Source: a virus. Taken from it: a stretch of 23,977 nt of DNA. The notes beneath the pieces were generated by a model. That model made no database searches and had not been told where the DNA came from. It saw nothing but the letters and a program-made list of their open reading frames with translations. This document shows, one piece after another, positions 1 to 22,403 of this stretch. The translations under genes were made by a program, and so were the position numbers. The first letter of the stretch is position 1. Every line of letters begins with the position of its first letter. The stretch lies in the IMG/VR virus record IMGVR_UViG_3300025598_000181, positions 1-23,977 of that record, one strand, 5' to 3'.

Positions 1-2266
1 CGCTTCCATCGCCAGTATTACCAGCATGATGTTCACGTGCACCAGCAAGACCATCAATGGCACCACCAAATGCTGCAGCGGTAAAGCCCAGATATGGGGC
101 CGCTTTAGCAAAGCCCATACCTAAAGAACCAAGGCCACCAAGTAAGCTGCCAAGACCACCACCGCCGCCCCCGCCACTTGGAGGCTGCGCGACAGCCAAT
201 TTGGCTTGCGGGTTATCATCTGGGATAGTCATCTTGCCTTGATGCTTGAGCAAATCAACATCTTTCGGCTTATCAATATCAACATCTGGTTGGACAGGTG
301 GCTTATTGTCATCATCTACGCTGCCATCTGTCGCATAACCCATGCGGCCACCGCGCCACTTATTCGGATCGGTAGTATCCGTGGATGTGTCTGGCTTTTT
401 AGTATCGTCACTGAATAAATCTTTTGTACCTTGATAAAGACCGGCCAAACCAGAGCCACCAGAGTACTGCCCAGTTTTAGTGTCTTTGACACCACGGCTA
501 CCAATGCCGCCCAAATCTTTGATGGCTGACGTTGTTTGAGACAAACCACTTTGCTGGCGTTGCGGTGTAGGTGCCACCATCAAGTTGCGAGATGGCATTG
601 AACTGGTCATAATATTGCGCTGCGTAGGCACGAGCCCAGCCGCACCTTGAGCCGCACCAGCTGCTCCATATGGATTAACTGCCTGCCTGCCCATCAATTG
701 AGCCAGCAATGCGTTTTGATCTGAACCAGCCAAGCCGCCGATGTCAAAGTTTTCGCGCACATTGTCATTGATAGCTGCGCCACCCATTGACGCTAGGCCG
801 CCTTGATAGAAATGGCCACGGTGGGCTGCATCCTTCGTGGCCTCATCATAGTCAACTGTCTTAATGCCGTGATAGTCACCAACTGCATGCGGGTGATGCT
901 TCTCAACGTCCTGCGCCGACAGACCGATCTGCTTGGGCCCATGCTCGCCTTTATAGCGAAACTTGATAATCTTTTGACCGTCATAGGTCTCACCGATCTG
1001 CTCAATGTCTTCCTTGACGCGCTCGTCCGAGAAAAACCCACCAGACTGCTGCGTTGTTGTCGTCGAACCAGAAAGAGCACCAGTACCTTCGGCAATGTTT
1101 GCCAAGAACTGTGTGACTTGGAACGGATAGGACTGCTGCTGCAAGAACTGATTGTAGAGCGCGGTGAGGCCAGCCTGCTGCGTCTGCTGCTGTTGTTGAC
1201 CAGCTGCCAATTGCGCTTGAGCACCCGTTAAGCCAGCCGTCTGAGCCCCAGTACCCAATGCACCAAGGTTTTGAGCAGTCTGTGCACCCATACCGTAAAC
1301 TTGGTTACCAAGAGCCGCTTGTTGCTGTGCTGCAGTCATGCCTTGACCAAACTGCTGTTGGCCAATGGAACCCAACCCTTGAGCCACACCAGTCTGCTGC
1401 CCGTAAAGTTGCTGGCCCAATGCGCCCAATTGCTGACCAGCGCCAGTGATCTGCCCATACAATTGCTGGCCCGTAGCAGCCTGTGCGGCACGGTTGGCCT
1501 GTTCAGCCGACAAGTTGACACCCTGCTGCTGTTGAGCCGCTCCAAGGGCTTGGCCATAGCCTTGATTGAGTAAATTGCCAACCACGTTGCCAGTAGCAAT
1601 GTCTTGTTGACCACGTAGTGCTGCCTGCGCAATTGCAGCCCGATCACCGCCAAATGCACCGGCTTGAATGGCTTGGCCAGTCTGGGCAGCTCGGTCCATG
1701 GCCTGCTGTTGCTGCAGCGGAGCCAATGTGCCACCGATGACCGTGTTCATGTAAGGGTTCATGAACTGATTGATCTGACCTTGCCCAATTTGTGTAGGCA
1801 TGACATTTTGTGCGCCAGCTAACGTGAATGGCGTAGCAGCGGCAAGGCCACCCGTAATACCGGCAGTAGCGCCAGCGATGTAAGGGGCCGCCGTACCCAT
1901 AGCGCCACTGTAAAGATTGGCGGCCTGCTGATTCGCGGCTGTTCCTTGCTGTTGCGCGGTTCCCACGTCTTGTGTGGCACCAGCAATATAGGGTTGGGCT
2001 TGTTGGACACCGCCAGCCAGCGCTTGACCTGCGGCTTGATACCAAGGTTGTGCTTCACCAGCCGCCGCATTTGTGTTGGCAATACCAGCTTGTTGTGTAC
2101 CAGTTAGAGGGGCGACGAAGGCGTTGGGATCGGTGCTATATTGCTGAAATGGCTGTGTAGCCGTCTGCTCTGCTCTCGCATTGACAGCATTATACCGCGC
2201 CAATACTTCTGGCGGGATAGACACTGTACTGGTTGAGCCACCACCTTTACCACCGCCGCCCGACAT
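1..2266 (-). CDS. Large Gln/Ala/Gly-rich virion protein with central S74-like domain (3' end missing)
   Basis: The frame is open from ATG at 2266 to the window edge, giving 755 visible residues and no stop. It starts 3 bases after the stop of the acetyltransferase gene, and GGAG inside that gene's end serves as ribosome site. Residues 1-25 are Gly/Ser-rich. Residues about 40-395 are low-complexity Ala/Gln/Gly with recurring GQQLYGQ-like units. Residues 413-476 match the S74 peptidase / intramolecular chaperone core: SDERVK (Ser413 and Lys418 in the dyad spacing) followed by KQIGLSAQDVEKHHPHAV. The rest is Gly-rich and acidic, with an RGGRMGYATDG motif and a seven-glycine run near residues 699-705. 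Similar proteins occur in metagenomic phages as tail-fibre-domain proteins. The Q-rich body and position downstream of tail-completion genes would also suit an internal or ejected virion protein. The exact role is unknown. Confidence 0.85.
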   Translation of the reverse strand, partial: MSGGGGKGGGSTSTVSIPPEVLARYNAVNARAEQTATQPFQQYSTDPNAFVAPLTGTQQAGIANTNAAAGEAQPWYQAAGQALAGGVQQAQPYIAGATQDVGTAQQQGTAANQQAANLYSGAMGTAAPYIAGATAGITGGLAAATPFTLAGAQNVMPTQIGQGQINQFMNPYMNTVIGGTLAPLQQQQAMDRAAQTGQAIQAGAFGGDRAAIAQAALRGQQDIATGNVVGNLLNQGYGQALGAAQQQQGVNLSAEQANRAAQAATGQQLYGQITGAGQQLGALGQQLYGQQTGVAQGLGSIGQQQFGQGMTAAQQQAALGNQVYGMGAQTAQNLGALGTGAQTAGLTGAQAQLAAGQQQQQTQQAGLTALYNQFLQQQSYPFQVTQFLANIAEGTGALSGSTTTTQQSGGFFSDERVKEDIEQIGETYDGQKIIKFRYKGEHGPKQIGLSAQDVEKHHPHAVGDYHGIKTVDYDEATKDAAHRGHFYQGGLASMGGAAINDNVRENFDIGGLAGSDQNALLAQLMGRQAVNPYGAAGAAQGAAGLVPTQRNIMTSSMPSRNLMVAPTPQRQQSGLSQTTSAIKDLGGIGSRGVKDTKTGQYSGGSGLAGLYQGTKDLFSDDTKKPDTSTDTTDPNKWRGGRMGYATDGSVDDDNKPPVQPDVDIDKPKDVDLLKHQGKMTIPDDNPQAKLAVAQPPSGGGGGGGLGSLLGGLGSLGMGFAKAAPYLGFTAAAFGGAIDGLAGAREHHAGNTGDGS

Positions 2267-2269
2267 TCA

Positions 2270-2770
2270 TTACACTCCAACAACCATCTGATCGGGCAAG
2301 GCTTCACCCGTCTTTGTCTTATATAAGAAAAACGTCCCAGCTGGTTCCCCAAAATGACGTTCATACATGCGCATCTTAGCACGGGTTCTAGTATTTGACA
2401 TTACCCCAATAACAAGGGGAAGTTCAAGACTATCCGATACTTGCTTACTAAACTCGCAAAGCTTGTTTGCTCTACCACCGCGTTCTTTTCTATACTTGTC
2501 GTCTACAAACAAACACTTCTCTTCTATGTACTTTGTATTGCCGTACCATAATTGAGAGAAGCGGAGCAGAACGCCGCCCTCAAGTGCGCCAACAGGCCCA
2601 ATTACGCCACAAATACCTTCCCAAAGGTACAGAGCTGGCCTAATCATGCCCAAAATCTTGTCGTAATCTGCGTCAAACAGCCCATTTTCATGAAAAACAG
2701 CCATTGCAAGGCGCATTAGTTCTGGTTCGTCTGCAGGTGTCGCTATCCGAACTTTGATCTCATTAGACAT
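2270..2770 (-). CDS. GNAT-family N-acetyltransferase
   Basis: This 166-residue protein has the length and layout of a single GNAT domain, which moves an acetyl group from acetyl-CoA to an amine. The N-terminal strand and helix are IRPA-preceding residues 6-30 (VRIATPADEPELMRLA). The acetyl-CoA loop is the LFVDDKYRKERGGRANKL region at residues 87-104, close to the YR..R.A form common in phage-encoded GNATs. It is followed by a strand (LPLVIGVMSNT) and the C-terminal MYERHFGEPAGTFFLYK segment typical of motif B. It begins 2 bases after the preceding stop, with AAGGA as ribosome site. The substrate cannot be told; lying among virion genes, it may modify a virion or host protein. Fold confidence is high, role confidence low. 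Confidence 0.85.
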   Translation of the reverse strand: MSNEIKVRIATPADEPELMRLAMAVFHENGLFDADYDKILGMIRPALYLWEGICGVIGPVGALEGGVLLRFSQLWYGNTKYIEEKCLFVDDKYRKERGGRANKLCEFSKQVSDSLELPLVIGVMSNTRTRAKMRMYERHFGEPAGTFFLYKTKTGEALPDQMVVGV

Positions 2771-2772
2771 TG

Positions 2773-4017
2773 CTAATCCTTTTTTGGACCGGGGAGCTTC
2801 TGCAATGTCTTGATTGTCTTGTTCCGCATTTTTTTGACAAACAAATCCAAGGCAGCGTGACCAAGCCCCATATTGCCGTTACCAATACGTGCCACTGCCT
2901 CTGGACTAATCACATACTCACCACCAGCCGCAACTATAGGTACACCGCTTTCCGCACCGCCGTGGGCTCTGTGAGGCAATTCAGCCCCATATGGTGTAGC
3001 CGGGCCAGAGTAAGGATTGGTTGCGCCGCTATAGGGCTCACCTTCAAACACGCGCTTGGCATGCTTAAACCCAGCCATAGTGTTGCCTTCACCACTAGCC
3101 GAAATAATGTCGGCTGGAATGACGTAACTTGACTTAGGCACAACCATAGGCAAGTGGTCGGTGCGGCCAGCAACCGAACTATGAATAGGCCCCACATGCA
3201 TTTCAGTGACAGTATGACCACCTTGAGCGTAGCCACCCGTTGCCATTCCTTGCTCGGACAACCGTTGTTTGTAGATGTCAGAGTTGCGAATAAAATCTAA
3301 TGCTGATTCAGAGCCGCCTTCACCACTACGCTGAATACGGCTATCATCCCAAATGTTAGATAGACGTTGGGGAGGCAATGGAGCTTTTTCGGGCAAACTT
3401 TGAGATCCAGTTGCACCAGATTGGCCTCTCGATGTTGCTATTTTACCAAGAATTGCTTCTGGGCTCGAAGTCATATCTGGATATTCATTGGCCGCCCGAT
3501 TTGCATCATATGATTGCGGGACAAGAGCGCGACGACCAAAAGTTACATCTTCAACTGATTGTGGTTGAGGAGTGGCTACTGATGATGTTTGAGGAGAAGC
3601 AACTGATGACGTTTGTATTTGTTGGTGATCATCTCGCACATCCATCAACGGATCCCACCGCATTGTGGGTTGGTTCATGATGGGCTTATAAGCAATTTGC
3701 GCAGCGTTTGGGTTGTCCAATTCATTTCTGCGATTTTTGAATGCAGCACTTACATTGTGTGCAATATTTTTCCAATTGGTTGAACCGCCCGGGGTATCAT
3801 AGCGAGCATCACTCGCATTAAACAAAACGTCTGGGTTATAATCTTCTGTAATAGACCGTTCAAAAGCACTTCTGGGCTGACCGCCACCCGTGCCATAACC
3901 CTTACGCGCCTCATCTAGCGCTGCGGCAATGGCTTGCTTCTGCGGATGACCGGCATGGATCATCTCGCTGATATTAGTGCTGATTGTCTTCTGTGACTTA
4001 CCTTTTTTAAGCGGCAT
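2773..4017 (-). CDS. Conserved phage virion-associated protein with duplicated YVI motif
   Basis: The protein has 414 residues. Residues 1-39 are a basic helical segment (MPLKKGKSQKTIS followed by AGHPQKQAIAAAL) that I recognise as the start of many phage proteins in structural clusters. Residues 40-260 look mostly disordered and polar. The C-terminal 155 residues hold two related units: residues 287-324 (VVPKSSYVIPADI, then GEGNTMAGFKHA) and residues 359-398 (PIVAAGGEYVISPEA, then GNGNMGLGHAALD). It ends in a basic tail, KTIKTLQKLPGPKKD. A GAGG ribosome site precedes the ATG by 5 bases. No enzyme motif is seen. Its position between tail genes and the large Q-rich protein suggests a tail or internal virion component, but this is inference. 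Confidence 0.8.
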   Translation of the reverse strand: MPLKKGKSQKTISTNISEMIHAGHPQKQAIAAALDEARKGYGTGGGQPRSAFERSITEDYNPDVLFNASDARYDTPGGSTNWKNIAHNVSAAFKNRRNELDNPNAAQIAYKPIMNQPTMRWDPLMDVRDDHQQIQTSSVASPQTSSVATPQPQSVEDVTFGRRALVPQSYDANRAANEYPDMTSSPEAILGKIATSRGQSGATGSQSLPEKAPLPPQRLSNIWDDSRIQRSGEGGSESALDFIRNSDIYKQRLSEQGMATGGYAQGGHTVTEMHVGPIHSSVAGRTDHLPMVVPKSSYVIPADIISASGEGNTMAGFKHAKRVFEGEPYSGATNPYSGPATPYGAELPHRAHGGAESGVPIVAAGGEYVISPEAVARIGNGNMGLGHAALDLFVKKMRNKTIKTLQKLPGPKKD

Positions 4018-6657: not shown

Positions 6658-7368
6658 TTAGCCTCTTGTCGGCGTGGCAACAGGTGACGGCGAGTAAGAT
6701 GTCCAAGCCGCCGCCTCATATTTCTTGCGAACTTCTTCAACAAGGGCGCTCTTCAAGAGGGCATTGTACTGGCCTTCATAGCTCTGCGCCATGGCTGGGT
6801 CATCCGACTGGCGGCCAAAGTTACGCTGATAGGCGCTGATATAAATCATGCTGGCCATGATCATAACATCTGGCAGATATGTGCTGATAAAGGTCGTCGT
6901 GTTGGATGCAGACAGACTTGCGGGTCTTGTCGTGCCGGTGATTGTAATAGTGTAGTTGCTGTCGGGCCAAGGGCCAAAAACAATGTTGCTTGAAGTATTG
7001 CCCGTTGTGGTCAAGTCACCGCCATACATGGCAAAATACTGAGGCAGAGCCGCACCGGTATTGGTGCTATAGACGTTCTGAATAAATGTCTTAGACACGG
7101 GCAAAACTGGCGTGTTAGATGGCCCAACGGTGATCGTCTGGGTTGTGACAAAATCACCGGTCGGAATTGCCAACTGGTTTGTGCCCGATGTCAGTGTGTA
7201 AGTGCGCGACACTTGCGTAGAAAGAAAGTCCAGATCGCGGCACATGCGGTTTTCCGCATAGGTGATCATCTGAGGCAAGATGGCGATGTAGTTAGGATCC
7301 GTTTCTGGGACAACGGCCATAGTCGCTATTTGCGTAACATATTGGGAATATGTAAGGCCAGTTGTCAT
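6658..7368 (-). CDS. Tail adaptor / head-completion protein (gp4-like fold)
   Basis: This 236-residue protein has helices at both ends and a beta-rich centre. The N-terminal part contains PQMITYAENRMCRDLDFLS, the pattern of phage adaptor proteins that sit under the portal. The centre has TLTSGTNQLAIPTGDF and IVFGPWPDSNYTITI. The C-terminal helix starts at about residue 165 (YLPDVMIMASMIYISAYQRNFG), and the tail is disordered (SPSPVATPTRG). It immediately precedes the gp10-like gene, as adaptor and nozzle genes often do. AAGG six bases before the ATG supports the start. A second protein with the same layout lies at 19946-20632, so the two may stack as successive rings, or one may serve a different joint. 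Confidence 0.72.
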   Translation of the reverse strand: MTTGLTYSQYVTQIATMAVVPETDPNYIAILPQMITYAENRMCRDLDFLSTQVSRTYTLTSGTNQLAIPTGDFVTTQTITVGPSNTPVLPVSKTFIQNVYSTNTGAALPQYFAMYGGDLTTTGNTSSNIVFGPWPDSNYTITITGTTRPASLSASNTTTFISTYLPDVMIMASMIYISAYQRNFGRQSDDPAMAQSYEGQYNALLKSALVEEVRKKYEAAAWTSYSPSPVATPTRG

Positions 7369-7376
7369 AGGAACCC

Positions 7377-7889
7377 TTATCCTGCCATCTTTGCCGCCTC
7401 ACTCTTGACGCGACCTACACGTGCGCTCCAGCCCTTGCCGTAACGGTCAAAGGTTGGCAACTTTTGCAGATACTCTAGCCTATTATCGCATAGTTTTGAA
7501 GCCGTTTCAGCCCCATCGCAGTCAGCCAGTGCCGCTTTTGTGGCATCGTCCAGCTTGCCGGTCACTTCGACATCCAAAATGGTCTGCACATACCGCAGAG
7601 CTCTTGCTGGGCCGGAGTTGACGGCAAAGTCCATCAAGGCATAATCAAGGCCACGAGGACAAATGTCCCCACCAATAACATCCCAAAAGCGCTGCTGATA
7701 CAGAGGATATACATCAGCAGGAATAAGATTTCGCATAGCCTGCTCAGATACTTCATGCCCACACCAGTCCTCCAAGGTCTTCTTGGTTACACCCCAGTTG
7801 GTCATGCCGCCCGGATCATGCGGGTCGTTCACGAAGCCACCTTCTTCCTTGATGATGAGCTTAATTACATCGTCCCAATTGTCTTTCAT
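7377..7889 (-). CDS. Endolysin, glycoside hydrolase family 108 (N-acetylmuramidase)
   Basis: This 170-residue protein cleaves peptidoglycan glycan strands at lysis. The N-terminal catalytic motif is KEEGGFVNDPHDPGGMTNWG, with Glu16 of the EGG motif as the expected catalytic acid and the D-PGG-TN-G signature following. The second half (from ALMDFAVNSGPARALRYVQ) matches the peptidoglycan-binding domain that usually follows in this family. Length is normal and no key residue is missing. There is no signal peptide or membrane anchor, so it needs a holin to reach the wall. Its ATG overlaps the stop of the phosphoesterase gene by 4 bases (ATGA). GH108 endolysins are mainly found in phages of Gram-negative bacteria. 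Confidence 0.93.
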   Translation of the reverse strand: MKDNWDDVIKLIIKEEGGFVNDPHDPGGMTNWGVTKKTLEDWCGHEVSEQAMRNLIPADVYPLYQQRFWDVIGGDICPRGLDYALMDFAVNSGPARALRYVQTILDVEVTGKLDDATKAALADCDGAETASKLCDNRLEYLQKLPTFDRYGKGWSARVGRVKSEAAKMAG

Positions 7890-10270: not shown

Positions 10271-11095
10271 TTAGTTCCATGATATGTAAATGCGACCGTC
10301 AGATCCAGTGCCGCCGTATGGATAGTTCCCACTATTGGGAGATGTACCACTTACGCCACCTTGACCAACAATCGCGTTTATCGTTGCGCCTACGGTTAAC
10401 TGTCCGGGGTAAAACACAGATTGTGCATATCCCCCAGATCCTGCGCCGCCAGCAGCCGCAGGAAACTTACCACCAAAGTCATAGTAAAATCCAGCACCGC
10501 CGCCACCCGGAAATGTTCCACTTGGAGCGGGAGTTTGTCTATATCCCGGATCCACGTTACCACCACCATAAGGAGCGCCAGCACCAGTACCTACTACACC
10601 ATAACTTGTTGTTACGCCATTATTACCAGTAATAGATGACACATTTCCGTAGGCACTTCCCCCAGTTCCGCCTGCAGCAAACTCATTGCCGCCGTTACGA
10701 TCTGTCCCTGCCATTTGACCGCCAGTGCCGCCATTGGCATAATAACCGGCAAATGAAGATTGACCGCCAGTCGTTGAGTAATTAGCTAAGTTGCCATAAC
10801 CACCGCCGCCACCACCAGCGCCCCAAATTTGAACGGTCAATGAGTTTCTAAACAGCGGGACAACAAACCCATATGTGCCGTAGGATGTATAATCTACCGC
10901 ACCAGAAGATGCTGGGTCATTAGGCTGTTTGTTGTAAAAGTCTGACAAGCTAATCGTGCCAGAAGAAAAATAGCCAGTATTCAATGAGTTAGGCTGATAC
11001 CAAACTGTGCCACGATAAGCATTAAGATTTGCGCCCCGCCCAAAGACGTTGTTTATGTCGTTAATAGATATGGTTCCGCTAACCGGCGTTGCCAT
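10271..11095 (-). CDS. Glycine-rich tail fibre / adhesin
   Basis: The protein has 274 residues. The N-terminal 57 residues (MATPVSGTISINDINNVFG, then GTISLSDFYNKQ) match the attachment segment common to short glycine-rich phage fibres, where ISIND and ISLSD repeats are typical. Residues about 88-255 are glycine-rich, with GAGGGGGGYG, GGTGG and GGGAG clusters separated by Tyr, Asn and Ser. Glycine-rich domains of this kind can form polyglycine-II sheets that carry receptor-binding loops, as in phage S16 gp38. The C-terminus is GTGSDGRIYISWN, the usual closing strand of these domains. It starts with a one-base overlap on the S74 fibre gene. It probably binds the host surface. Confidence 0.78.
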   Translation of the reverse strand: MATPVSGTISINDINNVFGRGANLNAYRGTVWYQPNSLNTGYFSSGTISLSDFYNKQPNDPASSGAVDYTSYGTYGFVVPLFRNSLTVQIWGAGGGGGGYGNLANYSTTGGQSSFAGYYANGGTGGQMAGTDRNGGNEFAAGGTGGSAYGNVSSITGNNGVTTSYGVVGTGAGAPYGGGNVDPGYRQTPAPSGTFPGGGGAGFYYDFGGKFPAAAGGAGSGGYAQSVFYPGQLTVGATINAIVGQGGVSGTSPNSGNYPYGGTGSDGRIYISWN

Positions 11096-12201
11096 TATCT
11101 AGCCTCCAAAGTTTCCACTTTAGCAGACAATTCTTTAATCGCTTGTATTAACAAGGGAACAAGTCGCTCATATCGCACGGTCAAGTATTTGTTATCTATT
11201 GGAGCGGGTGCAACAATTTCTGGCATGATTGCTTCTACTTGCTGCGCGGATACACCAACTTCGCGTACCTTTTCGTACCCAAACCCAATGGCTGTATCGT
11301 TAGGTTCATAATAAAAACCGCTAAGAGAATTGACCTTATCCAATGCATTAGCAATCACGCCCAAGTTTACTTTTAACCGGTCATCAGAATAGTAAGCCGT
11401 TACGTTACCAGTCGCTGTGATGGCCCCTGTCACAGATAAGCCAGAGCTAAATGATCCCGATGTTGCAGATACAGAACCACCAGACACGTTTGTCGCGGTT
11501 GTGGCACTTGTAGCGGTAGCAGCATTGCCAGAAATGCTAATGCCATATGTGCTGCCATTGTTATACACGCCATTGGTAACCGTAGCGGCATTGCCAGATA
11601 TGTTAATGCCCCAAGTGCCCGAAGCACCCGTTCCAGTAGGTGTTGGCGGTGTATAACCTAAAGCGGTCGTTACGTCACCCGATGTCAAGGATACGGCACC
11701 CGTGCGGGTATTGAAAGACAGCACGCCCGTATTGCTGATCGTCGGGTTATTGCCAGCACTGATTGAGATACCGGCACCAGCATTCAATTGCAGGCGCACG
11801 TCATCAGCGTAAGTAATGTTTGTGCCGTCAGAAAAAATAAACGAACTTTGGGTTAGCCCGTTCCCGCCAGAAGCTGTCACATAAGTGCCGCCGCCAGCAG
11901 AGGCCAGAGTGACAGTGTAAGCGCCCGTGGTGGTGTTCTGGACAATGAAGAAGCCACCGACACCGGCTGGAAAGTAAATGGTGACGTTTGCCGACAATAG
12001 ACCCGTTAACTTAATGCGGGCATTTTGGCAGTTGGTTTGTGTCAAATTGACATTGGCGTTCGTAAGCGCAATCGAATAAGTGCTACCCAAGGACGAATCA
12101 ACTACGTCCATGTCGCTGTTAAGCGGCACGTTCCACGAGTTAACGTAGTCGTTGTATCCCGGCTTTTCCAAGCCCTTATTGGTTGTGTACGAACTGGCCA
12201 T
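11095..12201 (-). CDS. Tail fibre with C-terminal S74 intramolecular chaperone
   Basis: The protein has 368 residues. The N-terminal part (MASSYTTNKGLEKPGYNDYVNSW followed by LNSDMDVVDSSLGS) is a fibre-attachment segment found in many phage fibres. Residues 60-260 are beta-rich Thr/Ser/Gly repeats, including NISGNAATVT and SISGNAATAT. The C-terminal S74 domain starts at Ser272: SDDRLK, with Ser272 and Lys277 as the expected self-cleavage dyad. It continues with VREVGVSAQQVEAIMPEIV and a coiled coil (LLIQAIKELSAKVETLEAR). In the family, this domain helps the trimer fold and then cuts itself off, leaving a mature fibre of about 271 residues. A stop-start TAATG joins it to the next gene. Confidence 0.88.
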   Translation of the reverse strand: MASSYTTNKGLEKPGYNDYVNSWNVPLNSDMDVVDSSLGSTYSIALTNANVNLTQTNCQNARIKLTGLLSANVTIYFPAGVGGFFIVQNTTTGAYTVTLASAGGGTYVTASGGNGLTQSSFIFSDGTNITYADDVRLQLNAGAGISISAGNNPTISNTGVLSFNTRTGAVSLTSGDVTTALGYTPPTPTGTGASGTWGINISGNAATVTNGVYNNGSTYGISISGNAATATSATTATNVSGGSVSATSGSFSSGLSVTGAITATGNVTAYYSDDRLKVNLGVIANALDKVNSLSGFYYEPNDTAIGFGYEKVREVGVSAQQVEAIMPEIVAPAPIDNKYLTVRYERLVPLLIQAIKELSAKVETLEAR

Positions 12202-12202
12202 T

Positions 12203-12544
12203 TTAATTCACCCAAGGCAGCGGAGGAGAAATCGGGTTGGGGCTAATTTGTTGCGCGATCTGATTGTCAATGTTTGCCTCATATGCAGCCACTTGTGCTG
12301 GTCCGAGGGCCGTTGTAACCCACCCCACCACTTGCGCTTGTGTAAGCTGCGCGTATGGCGTAAATGGCTCACCAGCATCATACTTTACATTGACCGTTCC
12401 GTAAACCGAGCCAGTGTGAGGTGTTGGCGTTGCGCCGTCAGACCCGCTCAGTGTCCAGTGGATGGTCGTAACAACATCCGTCTCACCCGCATAAGCTGGA
12501 TAGCAGTCTAATTGAGTGATCGTCCAAGTGTATGTGTTGGCCAT
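12203..12544 (-). CDS. Small conserved fibre-region protein (113 residues)
   Basis: The protein starts MANTYTWTITQLDCYPAYAG and continues with DVVTTIHWTLSGSDG and GSVYGTVNVKY, a beta-rich first half. The second half is helical (LTQAQVVGWVTTALGPAQVAAYEANIDNQI) and ends in a proline-rich tail (SPNPISPPLPWVN). I know this family as an uncharacterised phage domain found beside fibre genes. It lies between the two S74 fibre genes, overlapping the upstream one by one base. A cap, tip or assembly factor for a fibre is plausible, but no residue pattern proves it. Confidence 0.78.
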   Translation of the reverse strand: MANTYTWTITQLDCYPAYAGETDVVTTIHWTLSGSDGATPTPHTGSVYGTVNVKYDAGEPFTPYAQLTQAQVVGWVTTALGPAQVAAYEANIDNQIAQQISPNPISPPLPWVN

Positions 12545-15500
12545 TACTTTTTCTCCAGTGTGGCGATACGAGTTTCAAGGGCATCAATCTTTGCGACTGC
12601 TTCTTGAAGGGCTTTGACAAGACGCGCCTCTGTTTTTGACCAACCAGTAATCATCAACATGCCGTCCTCGCGTTCACCCACTACATCTGGGTAAACGGTT
12701 TGCATCTCTTGCGCGACAAACCCTATCTGGTGACCGCCACCTTCAGATGAAATATAATCAAATTCAACAGGTTTAAGTGCCAAAATTTTGTCAAGCTGCG
12801 GTGGAAGTTGTGTAATGTTTTGTTTTATCCTTTGGTCCGAAGTTGACCCAAATGCCGCCGTATTTGCCCCGTTGGCGTTTATTTGCCCGCAAGCAGCAGC
12901 AGAATTGTTAACATAGAATTTTTGGAATACTTGCGATGTCGTTGTATTGTTATCGTATTTAACAATCAAAACAGCAGCTTGGCTAACATCTCCGGCCGCG
13001 CCAGTATCAAACCGCCCAACAGCATTAACGGCTCCGGCGTTTACATAAAATTTAGCGTTTGCAGATGTTGACCCCACCAGCAGATTGCCGGAGGAGTCAA
13101 TACGCATACGTTCAAAACCGTTGGTGTGGAATGTTTCAACGGTTGAAGCACCGACAGCAGCAAGGCGAAACTCGCCAGAGAGCGCCAACATTGTTCCTGT
13201 GCGAGTGCCGCCGACATTCAAATCATATACTGCGGTGGTTGTGGCATTCAATGTCAAAGCATTATTACCAGCGCCATAAGCGTTAGGCGATGTCGTTCCA
13301 ATCCCCACATTCTGAGACGCATCAATGTATAAGGCAGTCGTATTATTTGACTGCAAGGTCAGTGCATTGCCTGTACCAGAATTGATTGTAGCAATAATTG
13401 GGGTTGTAATGGTTGGCGATGTTTGCAAAACAATCCCGCCCGACCCAGTGACGTTTTGGCCTAGTGCCGTTTGCACACCCGTACCAAAGGCCGAAATGCC
13501 TGTTCCACCGTTGGCAACAGGCAAAATACCAGTGACACCAGTTGTCAAAGGCAAACCCGTGGCATTAGTTAATACAGCCGCAGATGGCGTACCCAAATTA
13601 GGCGTTGTCAATGTAGGTGACGTTTGTAAAACAATACCGCCAGATCCTGTCACAGCGTTACCAATAGCTGCAATAACACCCGCGCCGGTTGTAGTCGTAG
13701 CAGGAGCAGCGCCCACTCCACCGCCTATGACGATGGCATTAGCAGCCAAAGCAGCAGAAGAAGCCCAAGTAGTGCCAGAACTAAAATAAGGGATGCCACC
13801 AGAAGTACCCGCAACAGTTAGAGCCAATGTGCCCGATGTCGTAATAGGCGACCCAGACACCGAAATAATACCACCAGTAAATGTTTGAGCCACACTTGTC
13901 ACTGTACCGGCATAAGTTGATGACCATGAGGCAGTTGTGCCGTTTGATGTCAGCACGGTGCCAGCAGCACCAATCCCCAATCGAGTAGAGCTATTTGTGC
14001 CATTCCCTACTATAAGATCGCCAACACTTGTGATTGGTGAAAGCGCATTAAAGGAAGCTGATGTGGTTGTTTGTCCTGTGCCGCCAGATGCAATTGGCAG
14101 CGTGCCAGTCGTTAACGCAGAGCTTGAAATGGCATAAACCGCACCGCCAGATGTAAAAGATGTTAAACCAGTTCCGCCATTGCCTACCGCTAAAGTTCCA
14201 GTCACACCGGCTGTTAAACTAACTTGCGCCCAAGATGCAGTTGTTCCATTGCTAACCAAAGAATAATTAGATGTTCCGATAGCAAGACGAGTAGCACTAT
14301 TGGTTCCGTTCCCAATAATCAAATCGCCCGCAGTTGTAATTGGCGACAAAGCATTGAAGGCAGCAGTCTTAGTTGTGGCTCCAGTACCACCATTAGCAAT
14401 ATTTAATGTTCCGCCTAATACAACTGCTCCAGTTGTAGAAGATGAAGGAGTAAACCCAGTTGTTCCTGCGCTAAATGAAGTTGTTACACCATCGGCATTG
14501 ATTGTAATGCTACCAGAAGCATTAACAATACTAACCCCCGTCCCAGCCGTTAATGTGGCTAAGGCATAGGAATTTGTGCTAGTGCCGATTAACAATTGCC
14601 CAGTTGTTGGAGCTGTAGAAAGACCAGTTCCACCGTGCGAAATGGTAACAGAACCTGTGTTGATTTGTGATGCATCAATGGCAATCATAGCGCTTGATGC
14701 AGCCGTTAATCTTCCTTGTGCGTCAACAGTAAATGTAGGAACAGCAGAAGACGACCCATAAGAGCCAGCTGTAACAGCTGTATTGGCTAAATTTATCGTA
14801 CCAGAAACAGTGATCGGTCCGCCTGTTAATCCAGTCCCAGTATTGATTTGAGTTACTGTTCCAGCGCCCGTAACAGTTGCCCAAGAAGGATTAGCGCCAG
14901 CACCACCAGTTTGCAACAATTGACCAGCCAAACCGGGGTTTAAAGGCTGCCAATTAGAGGCAGCACGATAAAGCAATTGACCCTGCGTATTGCCAATTGC
15001 GTAGTCAATTAAAGACGACAGCGAGACACCCGTTGGAGCGGCATTGACACCCGTCTCGTTAGCAAGAATGTAGCCGCTTGTGATAGGCGACAAAGACAGC
15101 GTTCTATTGGCGGACAAGTCACCGCCGCCAGTCAATCCCGACCCAGCAGTAATTGTGCGGCTTGTCGGCACAGCGCCGATTGTGGCTGGCGTAATAGCGC
15201 TTGTAGATGCCGAGGTAAGGCGGCCATACGAATCAACCGTAAATGTTGCAACGTCTGCGCCATCACCATATGAACCAGCCGTCACACCAGTTGTCGGTAA
15301 TGAAATTGTCCCCGATGTGGTAATCGTGCCGCCGTTCAAGCCAGCGCCAGCCGTAATGCTTGTTACGGTACCAGATCCGAACCCTTGGCTCTTAACATAT
15401 GCCGTTGTGGCAATGGTTGTGCTATTATCACTTGTCAGTGGAGTTGGAGCAGTTGGCGTTCCAGTGAACGCAGGTGACGCAAGAGGCGCACCAGCAATAA

Positions 15501-15825
15501 GCGACAGCACTTGCGGACCGGTAAGGTCTTGTGGATTGGCCGAGCCAGCAGTGTTGTTGCCTTTGATTGTAAGAGTAGCCATGGGCGCAAGATAGGCATT
15601 AGTAATCCCACTTGATTGCAGCCCGATGGTGCCAGTCGTGGTAATGGTGCCGCCAGAAAGTGGCGCAGATGCTGTAATAGAGGTAACAGTTCCATTAGTT
15701 GCTGCCAAATTGGCAATCTGCTGGGCCGTAACGCGCACGGTCGTATTGCTTTGGACAGCAGGAATTACTTCCGCCCCAGTAAGGGAAATGGCTGCGGGTA
15801 GATTGGTTATCGGTGTGTTAGACAT
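12544..15825 (-). CDS. Long tail fibre with repeats and C-terminal S74 chaperone
   Basis: At 1093 residues this is the largest complete protein here. Residues 1-45 (MSNTPITNLPAAISLTGAEV, then RVTAQQIANL) are a familiar fibre-attachment start. Residues 45-800 are Gly/Thr/Ser-rich beta repeats with recurring GTVTSI, NGGTG, NALSPIT and TNATGLPLTTGVTG units; a 59-residue unit occurs at 476-534 and 578-636. Residues 800-990 carry the fibre-shaft pattern ALYIDASQNVGIGTTSP and RMRIDSSGNLLVGST. The S74 domain starts at Ser996 (SDQRIK, dyad partner Lys1001), with HQIGFVAQEMQTVYPDVV and a closing coiled coil (ALETRIATLEKK). Self-cleavage would leave about 995 residues in a trimeric fibre. The start overlaps the upstream gene by 8 bases. 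Confidence 0.9.
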   Translation of the reverse strand: MSNTPITNLPAAISLTGAEVIPAVQSNTTVRVTAQQIANLAATNGTVTSITASAPLSGGTITTTGTIGLQSSGITNAYLAPMATLTIKGNNTAGSANPQDLTGPQVLSLIAGAPLASPAFTGTPTAPTPLTSDNSTTIATTAYVKSQGFGSGTVTSITAGAGLNGGTITTSGTISLPTTGVTAGSYGDGADVATFTVDSYGRLTSASTSAITPATIGAVPTSRTITAGSGLTGGGDLSANRTLSLSPITSGYILANETGVNAAPTGVSLSSLIDYAIGNTQGQLLYRAASNWQPLNPGLAGQLLQTGGAGANPSWATVTGAGTVTQINTGTGLTGGPITVSGTINLANTAVTAGSYGSSSAVPTFTVDAQGRLTAASSAMIAIDASQINTGSVTISHGGTGLSTAPTTGQLLIGTSTNSYALATLTAGTGVSIVNASGSITINADGVTTSFSAGTTGFTPSSSTTGAVVLGGTLNIANGGTGATTKTAAFNALSPITTAGDLIIGNGTNSATRLAIGTSNYSLVSNGTTASWAQVSLTAGVTGTLAVGNGGTGLTSFTSGGAVYAISSSALTTGTLPIASGGTGQTTTSASFNALSPITSVGDLIVGNGTNSSTRLGIGAAGTVLTSNGTTASWSSTYAGTVTSVAQTFTGGIISVSGSPITTSGTLALTVAGTSGGIPYFSSGTTWASSAALAANAIVIGGGVGAAPATTTTGAGVIAAIGNAVTGSGGIVLQTSPTLTTPNLGTPSAAVLTNATGLPLTTGVTGILPVANGGTGISAFGTGVQTALGQNVTGSGGIVLQTSPTITTPIIATINSGTGNALTLQSNNTTALYIDASQNVGIGTTSPNAYGAGNNALTLNATTTAVYDLNVGGTRTGTMLALSGEFRLAAVGASTVETFHTNGFERMRIDSSGNLLVGSTSANAKFYVNAGAVNAVGRFDTGAAGDVSQAAVLIVKYDNNTTTSQVFQKFYVNNSAAACGQINANGANTAAFGSTSDQRIKQNITQLPPQLDKILALKPVEFDYISSEGGGHQIGFVAQEMQTVYPDVVGEREDGMLMITGWSKTEARLVKALQEAVAKIDALETRIATLEKK
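13660..13821 (-). repeat. Fibre block shared with 18101-18262
   Basis: This encodes 54 residues (LTVAGTSGGIPYFSS, then TWASSAALAANAI, then GGGVGAAP) of the long S74 fibre. The same block occurs in the fibre gene at 17774-19108, with 42 of 54 residues identical by eye. The DNA differs at many third positions, so the copies are old or came by transfer from diverged phages. Confidence 0.8.
13918..14094 (-). repeat. 59-residue internal fibre repeat, copy 2
   Basis: This encodes IASGGTGQTTTSASFNALSP, ITSVGDLIVGNGTNSSTRLG and onward to NGTTASWSS (residues 578-636 of the long S74 fibre). It is separated from copy 1 by 43 residues of other beta repeats. Confidence 0.8.
14224..14400 (-). repeat. 59-residue internal fibre repeat, copy 1
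   Basis: This encodes IANGGTGATTKTAAFNALSP, ITTAGDLIIGNGTNSATRLA and onward to NGTTASWAQ (residues 476-534 of the long S74 fibre). It matches copy 2 at 13918-14094 in about 41 of 59 positions. Confidence 0.8.
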
Positions 15826-19945: not shown

Positions 19946-20632
19946 CTACCTATAATAGCCGGAAATCATCGGCGATATGTAATATGACACGTATTCGGTG
20001 TCTTGATCAGCCGCAATCTTGTATGATTCGTCAGCCTCAATCTTCAATTGTGGGCTTATGGGCTTGTTCCAAATACGTGCAAGGCGATAAGCCAAGCCGT
20101 TAGCAACAGCATCGAGCCAACGATACGGTACATCAAGCGTCTGACCACTTGTAAAGTTGGCATCTTGGATCTGCTTTACTACGTAATATTTCAAAACAAG
20201 GTTACTATTATCTGGAACGGGCCAGAGAGTGATTGTCGGATTGATCAAACGGTCAAACCAAAACACCGTGACTTGCCCTTGCTGTGTTTTGTTGGGATAT
20301 GAGGCCCACTCACTGCGCGAAATAGGAAAGATCAATCGATCAATTGGCTGCCCAGAGCTGCTATCTTCAATGTATGCGTCAAGAACCATAATGGTGCTGG
20401 GGTCTACATTGTAGGTTGAAGTACCAGCTGTAAGTGCTTGAGTTACAAGCGAAACTTCCCACAAATTAACGCCTTGATTCGCCCAATTTGCAAACATAAA
20501 GTTGCAAGCCATACGCGCACTTTGCATATGCTCTTGGGTAATTGCTGTAGGGCGGACATCACATAAATTAAAAGCATAGAGCGTGATCTCGCCAAGCGAA
20601 GGGTTAAATGCCGTGGTATTGCTTGTAGTCAA
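19946..20632 (-). CDS. Head-tail adaptor protein (gp4-like), TTG start
   Basis: The protein has 228 residues and is helical at both ends with a beta-rich centre. The N-terminal half has SARMACNFMFANWANQGVNLWEV, matching the ARR-LN-L-AEWANRGLNLW signature I recall for phage adaptor proteins. The centre has ALTAGTSTYNVDPSTIMVLDAYI, then PTITLWPVPDNSNLVLKYYV, and the final helices contain VPYRWLDAVANGLAYRLARIW. Adaptors of this type join the portal to the tail. The start is TTG, since an in-frame stop lies just upstream and the next ATG is 35 codons inside; a perfect AGGAGG sits 5 bases before the TTG. Confidence 0.82.
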   Translation of the reverse strand: MTTSNTTAFNPSLGEITLYAFNLCDVRPTAITQEHMQSARMACNFMFANWANQGVNLWEVSLVTQALTAGTSTYNVDPSTIMVLDAYIEDSSSGQPIDRLIFPISRSEWASYPNKTQQGQVTVFWFDRLINPTITLWPVPDNSNLVLKYYVVKQIQDANFTSGQTLDVPYRWLDAVANGLAYRLARIWNKPISPQLKIEADESYKIAADQDTEYVSYYISPMISGYYR

Positions 20633-21956: not shown

Positions 21957-22403
21957 TTAGTCACGCTCTGGCTCATAGGACTTATGAGCTTTGGGCTCGG
22001 TGCCCTTGTGAGCAGAAGAGAAGGGGTTCATGTCAGAAGCTGCGCGACCGCCATGTTTACGGGCAGGACGATCATGACGCTTTGCTGCATGCATGCCGTG
22101 GACATGACCGAGGTGCTTTTTAGCACGACCGCCACGCTTTTTGGCTTCCGCTTCCTTCACAGTGTTAGAGCCTTTGCCAGCATAGATTTCATGCGGGGCT
22201 GGATCCGTATCGAAGTGACCTTCTGGATCGTGCTCTGTCTTACCGCCGTGCTTGCGCACTTTGCGGTTATGCTTCTTCATTTCTTCCATATCATCCATTC
22301 CATGGTGCATATGTGCTTTGTGGGCATGGTGGGCGTGATGAGCATGATGACCTGCATGATGCCCATGATGCGCGTGGTGCCCGTGATGTGCTTTACCCTT
22401 CAT
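21957..22403 (-). CDS. Histidine-rich basic protein of the head block (148 residues)
   Basis: Residues 1-35 contain 18 histidines in repeated HHG and HHA units. An acidic/Met patch follows (MDDMEEMKKH), then a basic, Gly/Arg/Lys-rich part with KHGGKTEHDPEGHF, KRGGRAKKH, and RPARKHGGRAASDMNPFSSA. The RKHGGR-A-MNPFSSA segment resembles a C-terminal motif I recall in small basic proteins following capsid genes in other phages; the histidine tract looks like an addition. The protein should be disordered, bind divalent metals (Zn, Ni, Cu) and be positively charged at low pH. AGGAG lies 8 bases before the ATG. It is the last gene before the terminator. Function is unknown. Confidence 0.8.
   Translation of the reverse strand: MKGKAHHGHHAHHGHHAGHHAHHAHHAHKAHMHHGMDDMEEMKKHNRKVRKHGGKTEHDPEGHFDTDPAPHEIYAGKGSNTVKEAEAKKRGGRAKKHLGHVHGMHAAKRHDRPARKHGGRAASDMNPFSSAHKGTEPKAHKSYEPERD
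22302..22388 (-). repeat. Histidine-codon tandem repeat
   Basis: On the minus strand, CAT/CAC pairs separated by GGC, GCA, GCT or similar codons recur about every 9 bases over 29 codons. They encode the HHG/HHA tract of the histidine-rich protein. The unit is imperfect, with changes mostly at third positions, so the encoded pattern is kept better than the DNA. Confidence 0.75.

Follow-up and report, generated by a model that had tools for sequence, protein, structure and literature searches.

A short S74 domain without a coiled coil inside a putative fused podoviral DNA-ejection protein: a candidate for self-cleavage

The channel through which podoviral DNA crosses the cell envelope is built from ejection proteins, whose storage and release are, to our knowledge, poorly understood. 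For phage P22 there is a report of a host protease that takes 20 residues off gp7 (PMC4992974); ejection proteins are thus already known to be processed, and hydrolase domains are known to swap between them (PMC8954989). Self-cleaving S74 (ICA) domains have been described in other settings. MYRF (S587/K592) and endoNF (S911/K916) are cut before the Ser and only as trimers, which are held together mainly by a C-terminal coiled coil, and mutation of the coil blocks MYRF cutting (PMC8326128, PMC3742443). In MYRF the S74 domain is internal and separates two working halves (PMC3742443), and in a Bdellovibrio S74 fibre the Ser is required for self-processing (PMC10769870).

The window, by which we mean the whole 23,977-nucleotide stretch of viral DNA that was analysed, encodes at one end a large protein with an S74 domain in its interior. 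The features of this locus are as follows.

2..2266, minus strand: ORF 2266-2, putative fused ejection protein, 755 amino acids in the window, open at the window edge
1031..2266, minus strand: N-part, residues 1-412, Q/A/G-rich (PHROG 6121 and 4287, composition)
824..1030, minus strand: short S74/ICA core, residues 413-481 (Pfam, alignment, fold model)
881-1030, minus strand: Pfam PF13884 match, residues 413-462
1028..1030, minus strand: Ser413, codon TCG, putative nucleophile and putative N-terminus after cleavage; the same in all 130 distinct copies
1013..1015, minus strand: Lys418, codon AAG, putative general base, invariant in 130 distinct copies
2..823, minus strand: C-part, residues 482-755, probable linker towards Hydrolase_2, as in relative L003 (comparison with L003)
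2270..2770, minus strand: upstream gene in the P22 gp14 position; shares 50% identity with the 'putative acetyltransferase' at the equivalent place in MW202675
4369..6654, minus strand: Tail B / P22 gp10-like stabilisation protein; shares 43% identity with its MW202675 counterpart, 'phage stabilization protein'
11095..12201, minus strand: tail fibre with a classical C-terminal S74 and coiled coil, 97 residues from Ser to end (Pfam)
12544..15825, minus strand: tail fibre with a classical C-terminal S74 and coiled coil, 98 residues from Ser to end (Pfam)

The initial annotation had recognised an S74 core in ORF 2266-2 from Ser413 and Lys418 in the motif SDERVK, which is followed by QIGLSAQDVEKHHPHAVG. 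A profile search bears this out: PF13884 (Peptidase_S74; curated cut-off, 22 bits) matches residues 413-462 with an E value of 6.4e-7 and 30 bits, over positions 1-57 of the 58 in the model. Residues 1-412 are 54% Q+A+G and 4% charged and the S74 domain is 36% charged; because charge and composition shift so sharply at the domain, the match is not an artefact of composition. The view that this S74 is shortened and lacks a coiled coil also holds, since the conserved block stops about 10 residues past VDY, at about residue 481, which is where free-standing forms of the protein terminate. No DNA repeat accounts for the presence of the domain.

In profile, core fold, SDxxxK spacing of 5 and the Gly before xAQ, the window domain is like the S74 domains of fibres and endosialidases (endoNF, GA-1 gp12, and the T5 L-shaped fibre). 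It is unlike them in what it lacks: two known S74 elements, the trimer coiled coil and the helix that lies between strands one and two, are missing from it and from its whole subfamily, and there is no sign of a triple beta-helix upstream of the short core. It also differs in being internal and in having what is probably an ejection protein as its carrier. The two fibres of the same window do conform to the classical pattern, as had been stated earlier, with complete S74 copies of 97 and 98 residues that include the coiled coil. The closest parallel in layout is the ICA domain of MYRF (PDB 7dc3), which is also internal, has large working parts on both sides, and is the best fold match in the PDB. 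However, unlike the window domain, MYRF keeps the leucine-zipper helix that is required for cleavage and a beta-helical stalk.

The fold was approached by profile and by modelling. A profile of 114 copies searched against the PDB finds the S74/ICA structures 6f45, 7dc3, 3gud, and 8hqz (E values of 0.004 to 0.015). A second AlphaFold2 model, built as a monomer from a tighter and deeper alignment, has an overall pLDDT of 78, with 83 to 89 across most of the core. The AlphaFold2 fold consists of strands 12-20, 26-32, and 40-43, helix 45-51, strands 56-59 and 62-65, and short final helices. When this model was searched against BFVD, there were 25 matches at E values of 1e-3 or lower, many of them named S74/ICA proteins, including an 'Endosialidase chaperone' at a TM score of 0.80 and 28% identity. 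Alignment with VIA-align against the PDB places MyRF ICA at the top (Z 4.4, 2.5 Å over 62 residues), and the runner-up has a Z of 2.2. The Z of 4.4 is modest alone, but it counts since the sequence indicates the same family. Plain Foldseek against the PDB gave no S74 entry among the matches listed, all of which had E values above 0.5, so the support for the fold rests on BFVD, VIA-align, and the sequence profiles. Taken together, these indicate that residues 413-481 adopt the core S74/ICA fold in the predicted structure, in agreement with the initial annotation. A first model of 131 residues (pLDDT 51), in which MyRF ICA was the sole entry with a Z of at least 2 (Z 3.9), is too weak to serve as stand-alone evidence. 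A single-sequence PDB match to dengue envelope domain III (E 0.7) and matches to ThreeFoil and RecA were set aside as chance or repeat-driven.

The N-part of the window protein belongs with podoviral DNA-ejection proteins. In the PHROG scan, ORF 2266-2 matches 6121, 'virion structural protein' (1.9e-16; window residues 245-479 against profile positions 164-390), and 4287, 'DNA ejection protein' (1e-8; window residues 303-475 against profile positions 185-385), and both matches reach the final positions of the profile. The first ~440 residues correspond to free-standing ejection proteins of PHROG 4287/6121, which end in the same short S74 core without a coiled coil. Proteins of 271 to 468 amino acids with such an end are found in EPV2, Sulfitobacter phages NYA-2014a and phiGT1, Ochrobactrum phage OH, Rhizobium phage RHph_N2, Bradyrhizobium phage ppBeUSDA76-2, Sinorhizobium phage phiM5, Myxococcus phage Mx8, Pseudomonas phages PAE2 and AH02, and Microcystis phage Mae-JY35. 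In one set of closed free-standing forms, 67 of 74 terminate no more than 15 residues past the domain. One of them, phiM5_27, matches PHROG 4287 from end to end, and its GenBank note records that it was detected in the phage particle proteome. Based on these alignments, residues 1-412 appear to correspond to a free-standing ejection protein minus its S74 end, and the product of ORF 2266-2 is probably ejected into the host together with the DNA.

The window protein is like phiM5_27, phiGT1_17, EPV2 gp27, and Mx8 p54 in N-part family, gene neighbourhood, coil-less S74, and Ser/Lys dyad; it is unlike them in that the free-standing forms end with the S74 domain and have the hydrolase as a separate gene. 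PAE2 gp13 is likewise free-standing with a short C-terminal S74, but its N-part belongs to PHROG 598, 'DNA ejection', which we take to be the P22 gp7 family. Because the free-standing relatives end in the same coil-less core, the short S74 is a common subfamily whose usual place is the C-terminus of podoviral ejection proteins. The earlier description of an unusual short internal S74 therefore stands as to its internal position in this protein, but the domain is not a one-off. A Bradyrhizobium relative of 282 amino acids is without the S74 domain, and a further free-standing relative, L338 (ORF from base 1769, plus strand), is a natural variant whose catalytic Ser is replaced by Cys (LCDRRKKENI).

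Gene order points in the same direction. Several relatives have the order tail B-like protein, acetyltransferase, ejection protein, and then murein hydrolase or injection protein, and in EPV2, phiGT1, NYA-2014a, and OH the ejection protein and hydrolase are separate genes in this order. The window has tail B, acetyltransferase, and ejection protein, as in ejection modules, although the gene at 2270..2770 has no Pfam match of its own. The impression that the body of the protein resembles an internal or ejected protein is strengthened by this order and by the PHROG matches.

What follows the domain had been described as low-complexity sequence. Within the window 274 residues follow the conserved block, but they are not just a low-complexity stretch: in relatives they lead to a murein-hydrolase domain. 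The closest long relative, L003, is 74% identical with an open frame of 1,519 amino acids. Its residue 910 aligns with the last residue of the window protein, after which about 600 residues remain, and by this comparison we expect ~600 further residues of ORF 2266-2 beyond the window. The Hydrolase_2 domain itself falls outside the window and is known from L003, where this cell-wall hydrolase domain lies at 945-1026. Another fused relative, L012, has a GH108 domain, and in both L012 and L082 the first 340 to 440 residues match ejection families nearly end to end and are followed by matches to endolysin families. Among 45 C-parts, Pfam finds SLT in 7, Hydrolase_2, GH108, VanY, and Phage_lysozyme2 in 2 each, and single others. 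The median open frame among 89 proteins closed at both ends is 1,526 amino acids. Long proteins with an internal short S74 are also found in MW202675 ('internal virion protein D', 1,185 amino acids, with an SLT hydrolase domain at 601-694) and in BFVD entry A0A6J5LD05 (1,487 amino acids); for MW202675 and the BFVD entries we found automatic annotation and no description. Since free-standing relatives have the ejection protein and hydrolase as separate genes, the reading that fits the window protein best is a podoviral DNA-ejection protein fused in frame with a downstream murein hydrolase part, and its S74 core would be placed at the ejection/hydrolase seam. The word 'fusion' here names the arrangement and implies no direction of change.

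The S74 domain is present in 54 of 56 distinct complete relatives that were retrieved by patterns drawn from the N-terminus alone, and 20 of the 56 have two copies. Three complete fused proteins, L101, L172, and L041, have no S74, and L101 and L041 retain the flanks. Because these three do without it, S74 is a detachable module of ejection-type chains that is usual but not essential.

Conservation within the domain is concentrated on the dyad. Among 130 distinct lineage copies, the only columns at 100% are the Ser, the Asp, the Lys at +5, and one Gly; the Gly two residues ahead of AQ (the active-site Gly) is at 99.2%. The Ser/Lys pair, on whose conservation the initial proposal depended, is thus present in 130 of 130. 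The Ser codon is TCN in all of 133 copies, and the preceding residue is Phe in 102 of them. SD...K is kept in 147 of 148 further copies, mostly free-standing forms, and the sole exception is Ser to Cys. By set, these counts are 76 of 77 (retrieved by motif-free patterns) and 71 of 71 (retrieved partly by the motif); since the sets may partly overlap and the copies are related, the dyad counts are not independent events. Some second S74 copies have lost the AQ motif and retain SDxxxK.

The most likely single reading, to which we give about an even chance, is that self-cleavage at Ser413 would part the ejection half from the hydrolase half. Ser413, activated by Lys418, would cut between Phe412 and Ser413 by the S74 mechanism, freeing a 412-residue ejection part from the hydrolase part and restoring the two-protein state of relatives with separate genes. 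In free-standing forms the same reaction would remove about 64 residues from the C-terminus as a tag. Activation would need oligomerisation, which would be supplied by assembly of the ejection proteins and not by a coiled coil. Self-cleavage is favoured because the Ser is never Ala, Thr, or Gly and is once Cys, another nucleophile, which is how a nucleophile would be expected to behave. The degenerate second copies that still hold SDxxxK without the AQ motif also argue for cleavage, and MYRF may serve as a precedent for an internal S74 that parts two working halves. By the same analogy, the absence of the coil that MYRF needs speaks against cleavage, since the known activation route would be missing in the whole subfamily, and the invariant Ser, Asp, and Lys could serve structure. 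Cutting would not be essential, because L101, L172, and L041 are complete without the domain. More broadly, and tentatively, a coil-independent class of S74 may process podoviral ejection proteins, shedding itself from free-standing forms and splitting fused chains, perhaps triggered by assembly inside the capsid or by ejection; we put this somewhat short of even.

A close rival is that the S74 fold does not cut and acts in assembly, docking, or folding, for example by keeping the protein attached to the portal or to its fellow ejection proteins until packaging; conservation of Ser, Asp, and Lys would then be structural. That neither of the known activating elements (trimer coil, helix following strand one) is present, that most closed free-standing forms end so soon after the domain, and that the Asp and one Gly are as invariant as the dyad would all fit such a role. 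However, if the Ser were structural, one would expect Ala, Thr, or Gly at its position in a few of the ~278 distinct copies, and only Cys is seen. We regard a non-cutting module as a real but minority possibility. If self-cleavage does occur, self-processing joins ejectosome maturation and S74 works without a coiled coil; if it does not, this is a case of an S74 fold put to a new use while its dyad stayed fixed. Either outcome is directly testable in cultured phages such as phiM5 and phiGT1.

It is improbable that the domain is a functionless relic, whether acquired by recombination with a tail fibre gene or remaining as a by-product of the fusion. The same phage carries two S74 fibres, and three complete relatives lack the domain, with both flanks intact in two, but nearly all complete relatives retain it, the dyad is strongly conserved, and the domain occurs in many distant podovirus lineages. 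Less probable still is that the window protein is a tail fibre or tailspike, as record names of relatives ('tail fiber domain-containing protein' or 'putative tailspike protein') would have it, since such names reflect nothing beyond the S74 match, while the N-part groups with DNA-ejection families, the genes are ordered as in an ejection module, and the window encodes separate fibres.

Public records annotate S74 on ejection proteins automatically (phiGT1_17, Rhizobium phages, and BFVD names). In the open-licence literature we found no description of S74 on ejection or internal virion proteins and no paper that describes the short-S74 subfamily, its lack of a coil, or the fused form.

Several further observations concern the relatives and the rest of the window. 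In L033, L044, L073, L076, L098, L104, L139, L163, and others, the two S74 copies are 90 to 513 residues apart, and recognisable hydrolases are seemingly rarer in two-copy chains (1 of 13 versus about 16 of 32, Fisher p 0.015), a lead only, since the 16 was taken from totals per family and the relatives do not count as independent. The window has a separate GH108 lysozyme (7377-7889, minus strand; 2.4e-25) besides the hydrolase that we expect in the portion of the fused protein beyond the window. Two SU10_adaptor (PF24175) proteins (6658-7368, minus strand, E 7.9e-20; 19946-20632, minus strand, E 2.2e-10) may represent a dual tail-A arrangement of the kind reported in phiGT1 and Bcep22-like phages (PMC10386132). 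The first 40 residues of a 414-amino-acid product (2773-4017, minus strand) match PHROG 2423, of unknown function (2.4e-14), with no assignment for the remainder of the protein, and a 148-amino-acid ORF at 21957-22403 (minus strand), with no Pfam match, has a strongly His-rich N-terminus, HHGHHAHHGHHAGHHAHH.
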